From positions 2,844,001 to 2,908,000 of the forward strand of contig CP053031.1 in assembly GCA_021496505.1 (NCBI GenBank): DNA of 64,000 nt. The letters run 5' to 3'. Shown here piece after piece: positions 866 to 30,523 of the stretch. How positions within the stretch are numbered: the stretch's first letter is position 1; every line of letters begins with the position of its first letter. Below the pieces are notes generated by a model. It made no database searches. It was not told the origin of the DNA and saw nothing but the letters and a program-made list of their open reading frames with translations. The position numbers were made by a program, and so were the translations under genes. Source of the stretch: Thermoleophilia bacterium SCSIO 60948. Its GTDB lineage: Bacteria; Actinomycetota; Thermoleophilia; Solirubrobacterales; 70-9.

Positions 866-879
866 GCCCCTTCGGGGGC
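866..879 (+). terminator. UUCG-capped hairpin after tRNA-Ser
   Basis: GCCCC-TTCG-GGGGC begins 5 bases after the tRNA 3' end. The UUCG tetraloop is exceptionally stable, but no T run follows. It is a likely terminator or 3' processing signal. Its last two bases are the first two of the family A repeat. Confidence 0.5.
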
Positions 880-925
880 GAACGTCCCAAACGTTGTTCC
901 TCAGGTGTACATGCGGGACGTTCGC
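878..925 (+). repeat. Palindromic repeat A, left copy
   Basis: Arms GCGAACGTCCC (878-888) and GGGACGTTCGC (915-925) form a perfect 11-bp inverted repeat around a 26-nt loop. The first 20 bases (878-897) are identical to 1775-1794. A smaller dyad, AACGT-CCCAA-ACGTT, lies at 881-895. Both candidate start codons of the DUF559 gene (GTG 905, ATG 911) are in the loop, so an RNA hairpin would cover the translation start. It begins 17 bases after the tRNA-Ser gene. Confidence 0.85.
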
Positions 926-1852
926 GTGGCTGAGCTCGCCGGCACCCAAGGCAATCGCATTTCGAGCACACAGCTGCGAGCCCTCGGAGCATCGAGGAGA
1001 TGGGTTCACGATCGCGTCGGTGCGGGTCGGCTCGTTCGCGTCGCGCCGAATGTGTTCGCGATCCCCCCGTTCGATGAAACTGATGACCGCGGGCGCTGGT
1101 GGGGCGCGACCCTCGTCCGCGAAGGCGCCGTCATCTCCCACCTCTCGGCCGCGGTTGTCTGGGGAGCGCTTTCGATTGAGGGCCCGCTGACGACGGTCAC
1201 TCAACACGGCAACGCGGGGCCGAGGCGGTATGGTCGCGTCCTCGTCTACCGGCGCGCCCTTGCAGAGGGAGATACGACTACGTTCAACGGCCTGCCGATC
1301 ACCACGGCTGCCAGGACGCTGATCGACATCTCGGGTTCGGTTTCACAACGCGCTCTCGCTCGCGCGGTGCGAGAGATGGTCAGGCTCGAGCGAGTCACCG
1401 TGCCCGAGACAGTCGACGAGGTGGAACGCCACGCGGGCACTCGTGGAATCACTGCGCTGAGAGCCGCGCTCGCCCGCTACTCCGGACTGCCGCTCGACCG
1501 TGCGCGTAGCGGTGCCGAGGTTCGCGCGCTCGAGATCCTGCGCGACAACGACCGTCCGTCGCCGGTGCTCAACCTGATGATCGCCGGTGAGCGCGCCGAC
1601 CTGAGCTGGCCGCGATGCCGAGCCATCATCGAGATCGACGGTCGACCCTTCCACCTGGACCGAGGCGAGGACCTGCGGAAAGCGAGCATCTGGGAGAGCG
1701 CGGGCTGGACCGTGGCACGCATACCCGCCGACCACGTCTACGGCGCGCCGGCGCGCCTGCTCTCCCTCGTCGACGCGAACGTCCCAAACGTTGTGGAGAA
1801 CCGGAACGCCCGGGACGTTCGGCCCGCTGCCCCGCCGCGACCCGAGGCGTAG
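905..1852 (+). CDS. AbiEi-like winged-helix protein with C-terminal DUF559 nuclease-fold domain
   Basis: The 315-residue protein has an AbiEi-antitoxin-like N-terminal region (residues about 8-60, with RISSTQLRALG and GRLVRVAPNVFAI) and a C-terminal DUF559/Vsr-like region with ADLSWP, IIEIDG and a downstream His, the acidic pattern expected of a PD-(D/E)XK-type fold. AbiEi proteins are DNA-binding antitoxins of type IV systems, but no AbiEii nucleotidyltransferase toxin is adjacent. The start is GTG 905 or ATG 911, both inside repeat A, and the C-terminus is encoded across the second copy of A. The stop TAG (1850-1852) overlaps the probable -10 box of the next gene. Role unknown: self-regulating DNA-binding protein, nuclease or selfish element. 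Confidence 0.8.
   Translation: MYMRDVRVAELAGTQGNRISSTQLRALGASRRWVHDRVGAGRLVRVAPNVFAIPPFDETDDRGRWWGATLVREGAVISHLSAAVVWGALSIEGPLTTVTQHGNAGPRRYGRVLVYRRALAEGDTTTFNGLPITTAARTLIDISGSVSQRALARAVREMVRLERVTVPETVDEVERHAGTRGITALRAALARYSGLPLDRARSGAEVRALEILRDNDRPSPVLNLMIAGERADLSWPRCRAIIEIDGRPFHLDRGEDLRKASIWESAGWTVARIPADHVYGAPARLLSLVDANVPNVVENRNARDVRPAAPPRPEA
1775..1821 (+). repeat. Palindromic repeat A, right copy
   Basis: CGAACGTCCC (1776-1785) pairs with GGGACGTTCG (1812-1821) around a 26-nt loop, the same loop length as the left copy. Bases 1775-1794 match 878-897 exactly. It lies within the C-terminal coding part of the DUF559 gene and is read in the same frame as the left copy, giving VPNVV and RDVR in both. 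Confidence 0.85.
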
Positions 1853-21124: not shown

Positions 21125-21187
21125 ACACCCTCGTCGCCCTGGGCGCGCCACGCTCGCGACGAACCCGGGGATCGTCGGTCGCGTGCT

Positions 21188-21240
21188 CGAGGCGGGCCGA
21201 GAAGCTGATGCGGGGGCGACCGATCCTCGGCCCACCCGCC
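21188..21240 (+). repeat. Palindromic repeat B, left copy
   Basis: Bases 21188-21211 are identical over 24 nt to 22176-22199. The left half carries GGCGGGCCGAG and the right half CTCGGCCCACCCGCC, giving an imperfect palindrome whose centre (21212-21224) has diverged from the other copies. It lies just before the preferred start of the second DUF559 gene. Confidence 0.8.
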
Positions 21241-21263
21241 TAGGGACGAGGGCGACCGACGCG

Positions 21264-22196
21264 GTGATAACCGAGCTGGCGGCTTCGCAGATCGGCTTCG
21301 TCGCCGGGTGGCAGCTCGTCGGGGACGGCGTCACGCGGGCGGCTATCCGCCATCGCGTCCGGCGCCGGCGCCTGATCTCGGTCGGCCGCGACGTCTACGC
21401 AGTCGGCCACAACGACGACACGCGCCGGAGTCGATGGATGATCGCCGTGCTCGCCTGCGGTCCAGGTGCCGTCCTCGGCTTCACGAGCGCAGCCGAGCTC
21501 TGGCGGCTCATGGATCCGGCGGGCCGCACGCCGACCGTGATCGTGCGGAGCGGCCGCCACCGCCCTCCGGGAGTGCGCATCCACCGTCCGCGAACGCTCG
21601 ATTCGGCGCATCTGACGCGGAGGTGGCGGATCGCGGTCACCGACACGACGCGAACCCTCTTCGACCTCGCCACCGTGGTCGGCCACAGGCAGCTCCGCGA
21701 GGCGGTCGAGCGCGCCGATCGGCTCGACCTTCTGGATGTCGGCGCGCTCCTCACCCTTTGCGACGACGCAGGCCGCGGCCGGCGCGGGGTCGGCCGGCTG
21801 CGCCGGATCCTTGCCGACTTCACCGCAGACGACTCGCTCAGCGCGTCGGCGCTCGAGGACGATTTCCGGGGGTTGCTCGCCCGCTCGGGCGTCCCGGCCC
21901 CCGCGATCAACGTTCCGATCGGTCCCTATGTCGTCGACTTCGCGTGGGTGCGCGAGCGAGTGATCGTCGAGACCGACGGCTGGAGCGCGCACAAGGGAAA
22001 ACCGAGCTTCGATTCGGACCGCGAGCGATTCGGCCGGTTGCAGTCGCTCGGCTGGAGGGTCCTGCCGGTGACGGCGAAGCGGATCCGTGACGACTCGGCC
22101 GGTCTCCTACGCGACCTCGGCGCGCTCCTCGCCATCGAGGGGCTGGCCGAGCACGATCCCAGAGAGCATCGACGGCGAGGCGGGCCGAGAAGCTGA
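21264..22196 (+). CDS. AbiEi-like winged-helix protein with DUF559 nuclease-fold domain (second paralogue)
   Basis: A protein of 310 residues from GTG 21264, which has GACGAGGG upstream; an alternative GTG at 21183 would add 27 residues encoded by repeat B. The N-terminus (ELAASQIGFVAGWQLVGDGVTRAAIRHRV, then RLISVGRDVYAVG) is the AbiEi winged helix. The C-terminus is a well-formed DUF559 domain: YVVDFAWVRERVIVETDGWSAH and then RFGRLQSLGWRVLPV, with the Asp, Glu-x-Asp and Arg positions of a Vsr/PD-(D/E)XK-like nuclease. The stop TGA (22194-22196) lies inside the right copy of repeat B. No toxin partner is adjacent. Overall plan equals the gene at 905-1852, but the flanking palindrome differs. 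Confidence 0.8.
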   Translation: MITELAASQIGFVAGWQLVGDGVTRAAIRHRVRRRRLISVGRDVYAVGHNDDTRRSRWMIAVLACGPGAVLGFTSAAELWRLMDPAGRTPTVIVRSGRHRPPGVRIHRPRTLDSAHLTRRWRIAVTDTTRTLFDLATVVGHRQLREAVERADRLDLLDVGALLTLCDDAGRGRRGVGRLRRILADFTADDSLSASALEDDFRGLLARSGVPAPAINVPIGPYVVDFAWVRERVIVETDGWSAHKGKPSFDSDRERFGRLQSLGWRVLPVTAKRIRDDSAGLLRDLGALLAIEGLAEHDPREHRRRGGPRS

Positions 22197-22231
22197 TGCC
22201 TGGGCATCTGGTTCTCGGCTCACCTCGATGC
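22166..22231 (+). repeat. Palindromic repeat B, right copy
   Basis: The best-preserved copy. GCCGAGAA (22184-22191) pairs with TTCTCGGC (22212-22219), GATGCC (22195-22200) with GGCATC (22203-22208), and outer GCATCGA (22166-22172) with TCGATGC (22225-22231). It contains the stop codon of the DUF559 gene and shares 24 exact bases with the left copy. Confidence 0.85.
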
Positions 22232-29792: not shown

Positions 29793-30440
29793 ATGAGCGA
29801 CTCACGCGACGCCGGCGCATTCACCGGCGCCTACAAGCTGGCGATCGGCGCCTGCAGGCCCGCGATAGCCGGCTGGGGGCGGATGAAGGTCGAGGGCCTC
29901 GACGCGCTGCCGCCGACCGGACCGGTCCTCCTGGCCGGCAACCACGACTCCTACTGGGACACCGTCTCGATCGGTCTGGCGGCGAAGCCGGTCCGCCAGG
30001 TCCGGGCGCTCGCCAAGGCCGAGCTCTGGAAGGTCCCCGGCCTCGGCGGTCTGCTCGACGGGATGGGTCAGATCCCGATCAACCGCGGCAAGGGCGACAC
30101 CGACGCTCTCGAGAACGCCGTCCGCGAGCTCCGCGCCGGAGCCTGCATCGGGATCTTCCCCGAGGGCACGCGCTCGAAGGGCGCCGAGCTGAGGCCGCGC
30201 AGCGGCATCGGCCGACTCGCCCAGCGTGTGCCCGAGGCGGAGATCGTGTGCGTGGCCGTGGTCGGGACGACCGATTTCACGCGGTTCCCGAAGCGGCCGG
30301 AGGTGACGGTCCGCTTCTTCCGCCCCGCCGAGGGAAACCTGCGACCCGACGAGGACCCCAAGGACTTCGCGGCGCGGCTCGTGCGCGAGATCCGTGCCGA
30401 GGCGCCGTGGGCGGCGCTCGGCCGCAAGGCGAGCGCCTAG
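29793..30440 (+). CDS. 1-acyl-sn-glycerol-3-phosphate acyltransferase (PlsC-like)
   Basis: A 215-residue acyltransferase of the PlsC/LPLAT family, which esterifies position 2 of lysophosphatidate in phospholipid synthesis. The catalytic NHxxxxD motif is GNHDSYWD. The second block GQIPINRGKGD and the glycerol-phosphate-binding block FPEGTRSKG follow at normal distances. No obvious transmembrane anchor is present, so it is peripheral at the inner membrane face. It has its own transcription unit after the cysC terminator; the solo repeat B lies 23 bases past its stop codon and might act as its terminator. Confidence 0.88.
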   Translation: MSDSRDAGAFTGAYKLAIGACRPAIAGWGRMKVEGLDALPPTGPVLLAGNHDSYWDTVSIGLAAKPVRQVRALAKAELWKVPGLGGLLDGMGQIPINRGKGDTDALENAVRELRAGACIGIFPEGTRSKGAELRPRSGIGRLAQRVPEAEIVCVAVVGTTDFTRFPKRPEVTVRFFRPAEGNLRPDEDPKDFAARLVREIRAEAPWAALGRKASA

Positions 30441-30463: not shown

Positions 30464-30499
30464 GCCGAGAAGCCGTCGCCCCGGCATCAGGTTCTCGGC
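30464..30499 (+). repeat. Palindromic repeat B, solo copy
   Basis: GCCGAGAA (30464-30471) and TTCTCGGC (30492-30499) match the arms of the right B copy. The core GCATCAGG also matches, allowing one change, while the opposite half-core has diverged. The nearest DUF559 gene is more than 8 kb away. It lies between plsC and the queuosine salvage gene, in the same direction as the other copies. Confidence 0.75.
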
Positions 30500-30523
30500 A
30501 CGGTTCGCGGCGAAAGGGACTCG

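Follow-up and report, generated by a model that had tools for sequence, protein, structure and literature searches.

Among the short dispersed repeats of bacteria, repetitive extragenic palindromes (REPs) are the best known, and no partner for them other than the REP-associated tyrosine transposases (RAYTs) was described in the open-access literature covered. The RAYTs have been recognized by their flanking REPs, by co-evolution with these repeats, by rapid gene evolution, and by a correlation between gene and repeat abundance (PMC2817692), and they are single-copy and vertically inherited (PMC8049555). AbiEi, the antitoxin of the AbiE type IV toxin-antitoxin system, binds an operator of the form TGTTGCTTTTA-N27-TAAAAGCAACA, which comprises two 23-bp half-sites with 3 bp between them (PMC3985639). 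The target on which the EDxHD homing endonuclease I-Bth0305I dimerizes spans nearly 60 bp (PMC3943268). We examined a 64,000-nt stretch of the genome of Thermoleophilia bacterium SCSIO 60948 (contig CP053031.1, positions 2,844,001 to 2,908,000; hereafter the window), in which a gene combining AbiEi and EDxHD nuclease domains is bracketed by two palindromes. Because near-identical palindromes stand at the start and the end of this gene, copies occur genome-wide, and the same arrangement recurs across actinobacteria, the locus seems to represent a type of system, not described before, that spreads or manages repeats and is built on an unexpected enzyme. No description of such DUF559/AbiEi palindrome systems was found among the open-access papers searched.

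In the window protein, a complete AbiEi-type DNA-binding module is joined to an EDxHD (Vsr/DUF559) nuclease, in agreement with the AbiEi/DUF559 assignment made in a preliminary description of the sequence. Beyond the Pfam domains and the AbiEi profile of PADLOC (Table 1), its AlphaFold2 model (predicted local distance difference test score 90.7) was matched by Foldseek to the AbiEi of S. agalactiae over about 200 residues and to the I-Bth0305I catalytic domain over about 95 residues, with a template modelling score of 0.74 on the target. Residues E203, D230, E241, D243, H248, and D254 (numbered from the ATG) were invariant across 44 homologue sequences, and the predicted catalytic residues of the EDxHD fold are intact in the window protein.

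Compared with REP/RAYT systems, the gene here is likewise flanked by two palindromes and its cognate palindromes are likewise dispersed, and both rapid divergence relative to neighbors and co-divergence of palindrome and protein were found in the clade examined. However, the enzyme is an AbiEi-EDxHD nuclease whereas a RAYT is a Y1 HUH transposase, the palindromes measure about 45-49 nt and were not observed to have the GTAG head, the host phylum is Actinomycetota, copy numbers are lower, and the flanking copies stand in direct or inverted relation. The Y1 (HUH) transposase domain PF01797 was absent from the nine genomes checked, with the control working; this absence and the AbiEi and EDxHD folds rule out a classical RAYT system. 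As far as its anatomy indicates, the system works like REP/RAYT and shares most of the features by which RAYTs have been recognized, but its enzyme is unrelated and it falls outside that family. With AbiE, the locus shares the AbiEi profile and fold as well as the palindrome geometry (11-N26/27-11 against the N27 of the published operator), but it differs in having an additional C-terminal nuclease, a second site at the gene end, and dispersed sites, and no AbiEii nucleotidyltransferase toxin gene adjoins it among the neighbors examined in the window. With I-Bth0305I and the Vsr/DUF559 enzymes it shares the catalytic-domain fold and the invariant acidic residues and histidine, and the very long target on which I-Bth0305I dimerizes can be likened to the palindromes. 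Unlike the homing endonucleases, the gene is not in an intron or intein, its DNA reader is AbiEi, and both recognition palindromes are intact at the gene ends rather than split by the gene.

The structure of the two palindromes was verified in the sequence as it had been described: 20 identical bases at 878-897 and 1775-1794, arms of 11 bp on the left (878-888/915-925) and 10 bp on the right (1776-1785/1812-1821), loops of 26 nt in both, both candidate start codons inside the left copy, and a right copy that is coding. Taken at the same 46-nt length, with identical arms, the two palindromes span 879-924 and 1776-1821. The 18-mer CGAACGTCCCAAACGTTG, allowing up to three mismatches, was observed twice in the window against 0.08 expected, and single-strand folding of either copy gave z = -3.9. 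As had also been described, the two copies share a reading frame, with a spacing of 897 nt and ANVPNVV...RDVR found in both translations. This shared frame appears incidental, since downstream copies at other loci begin before, at, or after the stop codon.

The genome (3.42 Mb, one contig) was then surveyed by pattern searches and selected stretches of sequence. The same 18-mer pattern gave 15 matches, against none for the reversed pattern, and CGAACGTCCC-N20-34-GGGACGTTCG was found at nine places, seven of them beyond the window pair, against none for its reversed control. In at least five copies (L005, L006, L007, L008, and L012) the palindrome sits inside a longer repeat of about 450 nt, and the remaining copies are solo or clustered. 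No Rfam match was obtained for the two copies of the longer repeat that were tested, and Rfam gave no known RNA in the loci tried.

We assessed bracketing among homologues by aligning the upstream flank of each gene with its own downstream flank and comparing the result with the flanks of other loci (p < 0.01). Of 128 distinct homologous loci, 36 were bracketed by their own upstream and downstream repeat, against about 1.3 expected; these loci came from a search of 50 genomes belonging to the same GTDB family. In a sample of 120 Actinomycetota genomes, 18 of 27 loci were bracketed (about 1% expected). Named Solirubrobacterales records, including Patulibacter, were also bracketed, these being partly the same genomes as in the family set. 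The bracketing repeats of the family and phylum loci had a median length of about 45 nt and were mostly palindromic. It was noted that the upstream repeat typically lies about 0-160 nt from the first helix of the protein, and that at most bracketed loci the downstream repeat starts about 30 nt or less from the stop codon, which bears out the earlier remark that autoregulation could not explain a copy near the stop. The palindrome sequence differs from gene to gene, with the exception of close orthologues. At one locus (L039 in genome G003), each side of the gene holds a palindrome pair about 70 nt apart, resembling the doublets known as bacterial interspersed mosaic elements (BIMEs) or REP doublet-forming hairpins (REPINs).

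The preliminary description had looked to extra copies, in this genome and in relatives, as support for a repeat-associated element. That expectation stood for the seven further palindromes and for the relatives bracketed by their own repeats, but not for the 20-mer itself, which is almost confined to this genome because every gene has a different palindrome. A repeat-associated element is thus favored by the further genomic palindromes together with the bracketed homologues, some of which have about 10-90 copies per genome.

To characterize this dispersal, the arms of the palindrome of one homologue (L053 in genome G036) were searched at the correct spacing in the 50 genomes, and eleven palindromes of the phylum sample were searched together in eleven genomes; the counts from both searches are lower bounds. 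The L053 arms occurred at least 90 times in G036, 56 times in G040, and 33 times in G042, against none for the reversed control, and at least 30 times in G038, 26 times in G037, 5 times in G031, and once in G034. None were among the matches listed for any other of the 50 genomes. For the eleven phylum-sample palindromes, the matches listed at E <= 0.001 were all to the cognate genome. The complete chromosomes G065 and G123 each held their own palindrome at no fewer than about 17 places, and none were among the matches listed in two congeners of G123.

The dispersed copies lie mostly at the 3' ends of genes. Among 22 intergenic copies in G123 and G036, 11 were in convergent gaps, 11 in tandem gaps, and none in divergent gaps, with two more called inside genes; the nine copies scored in the SCSIO 60948 genome included no divergent one either. 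If a quarter of gaps are divergent, the absence of divergent positions among all 31 scored copies has a probability of about 1e-4. The gene calls around these copies are heuristic (based on GC content at third codon positions), and G065 was excluded from the location count as the calls failed for several copies. Across 16 copies in G065, the outer AACTTCGGG (9 nt) and the central GTCGCTATAGCGAC (14 nt) were kept while the mid-arm varied without preserved pairing, which fits a double-stranded protein site and not an obligate hairpin. At orthologous sites within one genus, the palindrome was present, absent, or swapped for a species-specific version.

The five closest L053-type genes (L053 and its orthologues in G042, G040, G034, and G047) stand at one syntenic locus, and the gene is therefore vertically inherited in this one clade examined closely. 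It evolves faster than its upstream neighbor, as the orthologues share 54-71% protein identity against 88-97% for the neighbor. The palindromes of the clade have outer-arm sequence in common and differ in their interiors. Over the whole bracketed set, palindrome and protein similarity were weakly correlated (Mantel r = 0.15), though more strongly than in almost all permutations (p = 0.0045), the weakness being due to palindromes that are unrelated below about 50% protein identity.

The association of gene and palindromes is directly documented and carries a strong implication of binding, while cleavage and nuclease-driven spread are inferred, as follows. The protein probably binds the palindrome of about 46 bp as a dimer, with the outer arms read by the AbiEi module, as AbiEi reads its 49-bp operator, and the C-terminal EDxHD nuclease domains would thereby be placed near the palindrome center. 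The upstream copy occupies the position expected of an autoregulatory operator, the downstream copy would turn the gene and its palindromes into a unit, and solo palindromes may be tolerated at gene ends. The nuclease would cut or nick at the palindrome and so promote its copying, homogenization, or turnover, as RAYT transposases serve REPs. It is probable, in our assessment, that the gene and its private dispersed palindrome family form a REP-like system whose partner is not an HUH enzyme. We lean slightly towards the wider proposition that REP-like intragenomic repeats evolved independently a second time and exist as a class across Actinomycetota, in which gene-private palindromes are recognized and propagated by an AbiEi antitoxin scaffold fused to a homing-type EDxHD nuclease, without involvement of an HUH transposase.

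Several observations weigh against this interpretation. At most of the family loci, no bracket pair could be detected; the pair may have been lost, never have been present, or be too diverged for the flank method, which is blind to short or diverged repeat pairs. In the eleven-palindrome search, some genomes held just the two brackets. The presence of copies agrees with that of the cognate gene for G036, G040, and G042 but not for G037 and G038, two metagenome-assembled genomes (84-87% complete) that carry their at least 26 and 30 copies with no close orthologue detected. The copies counted in G042 read GGGCCGAAAAC whereas the brackets of its own gene read GGGCCGAAAAGCC, with common outer arms and a different inner part. 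Finally, no de novo insertion of a palindrome was seen at the sites compared, and at two of the three sites examined the "empty" allele retains a remnant of one outer arm (L266, L267, and L242), which suggests that at least some absences reflect loss, by partial deletion or decay, rather than gain of the palindrome in the other allele.

Other explanations were weighed against the same evidence. If the palindromes were operators of an AbiEi-like repressor regulon, with the dispersed copies regulating other genes and the nuclease incidental or acting elsewhere, the AbiEi operator geometry would follow, as would the overlap of the upstream copy with the start region, where an autoregulatory operator would lie. 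We consider this unlikely, as the dispersed copies lie at the ends of genes and between convergent genes with none between divergent genes, bracketed loci repeatedly have a second copy close to the stop, the nuclease residues are invariant among homologues, and copies are lost and changed in sequence between congeners. It is also quite unlikely that the nuclease serves self/non-self discrimination or genetic conflict, in homing or defense, by recognizing the palindrome on DNA that enters the cell or on sister DNA, with the chromosomal copies as decoys, marks, or targets: the absence of an AbiEii toxin or other defense partner adjoining the window gene, the intact sites beside a gene that in homing would split its site, and the syntenic, vertical history of one clade all speak against it, although the homing-endonuclease fold, the place of AbiEi in phage-defense toxin-antitoxin systems, and the large number of paralogues in each genome, several of which have a palindrome of their own, are in its favor.

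The good RNA folding of the palindromes and their location at 3' ends and in convergent gaps are what transcription terminators or mRNA 3' structures would show, with the link to the gene being secondary. This seems very improbable, since terminators are not expected to be gene-private sequences that match the two brackets of the gene itself, and the unpaired mid-arm variation between the conserved outer and central parts in G065 fits a protein site. Local duplication in this genome alone, an alternative raised in the preliminary description, would suit the near-confinement of the 20-mer, but it is refuted by the seven further copies here and by dozens of homologues, at family and phylum level, in which other sequences are arranged in the same way, and we give it practically no credence.

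The window contains a second bracketed gene (Table 1). A bracket scan of 41 window genes, with a null built from the flanks of distant genes, yielded a single strong match, the second DUF559 paralogue; one of the other 40 genes passed, marginally. The palindrome of this second gene also has a diverged solo copy at 30465-30501 on the minus strand, shortly past the end of an open reading frame at 29793-30440. The window protein has ten matches in its own genome, the window gene included, and four paralogues besides the window gene (L026, L027, L032, and L033) have brackets of their own sequence. One of these (L033) is apparently frameshifted, yet it has kept two nearly identical brackets of 46-47 nt. 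The neighbors of the window gene are a tRNA-Ser gene (770-861), 17 nt past which the left palindrome starts, a cupin protein, and a GMC oxidoreductase. A tRNA-Ser gene also stands directly upstream of the paralogue L032 (1327-1416 at that locus; anticodons tga in the window and gga there).

Table 1. Coordinates of the two bracketed genes, their domains, and their palindromes in the window
Feature	Position	Strand	Details
AbiEi-EDxHD nuclease gene	905..1852	+	Start GTG 905 or ATG 911; 315/313 aa; Pfam AbiEi_4 and DUF559
AbiEi module (winged helix and AbiEi C-terminal domain)	923..1444	+	Residues 5-178; PADLOC AbiEi E=1.4e-17; Foldseek 6y8q E=2.5e-5
EDxHD/Vsr-like (DUF559) nuclease domain	1511..1780	+	Alignments of homologues; Foldseek 3r3p I-Bth0305I E=2.6e-4
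Left (upstream) palindrome, 48 nt	878..925		GCGAACGTCCC-N26-GGGACGTTCGC; includes GTG 905 and ATG 911
Right (downstream) palindrome, 46 nt	1776..1821		CGAACGTCCC-N26-GGGACGTTCG; within 3' end of coding sequence
Second AbiEi-DUF559 gene	21183..22196	+	Start codon uncertain
Upstream palindrome of second gene	21188..21236		49-nt repeat CGAGGCGGGCCGAGAAGCTGATGC...
Downstream palindrome of second gene	22176..22224		Overlaps stop codon of second gene

If this interpretation is true, a second, non-HUH partner would mean that populations of palindromic repeats have more than one origin, and a role would be gained for a very common family annotated merely as "DUF559" or "AbiEi antitoxin". The family would also supply a large set of DNA readers naturally paired with targets of about 46 bp, useful for decoding specificity, and the long-standing question of why bacteria keep such repeats would become testable in another phylum.
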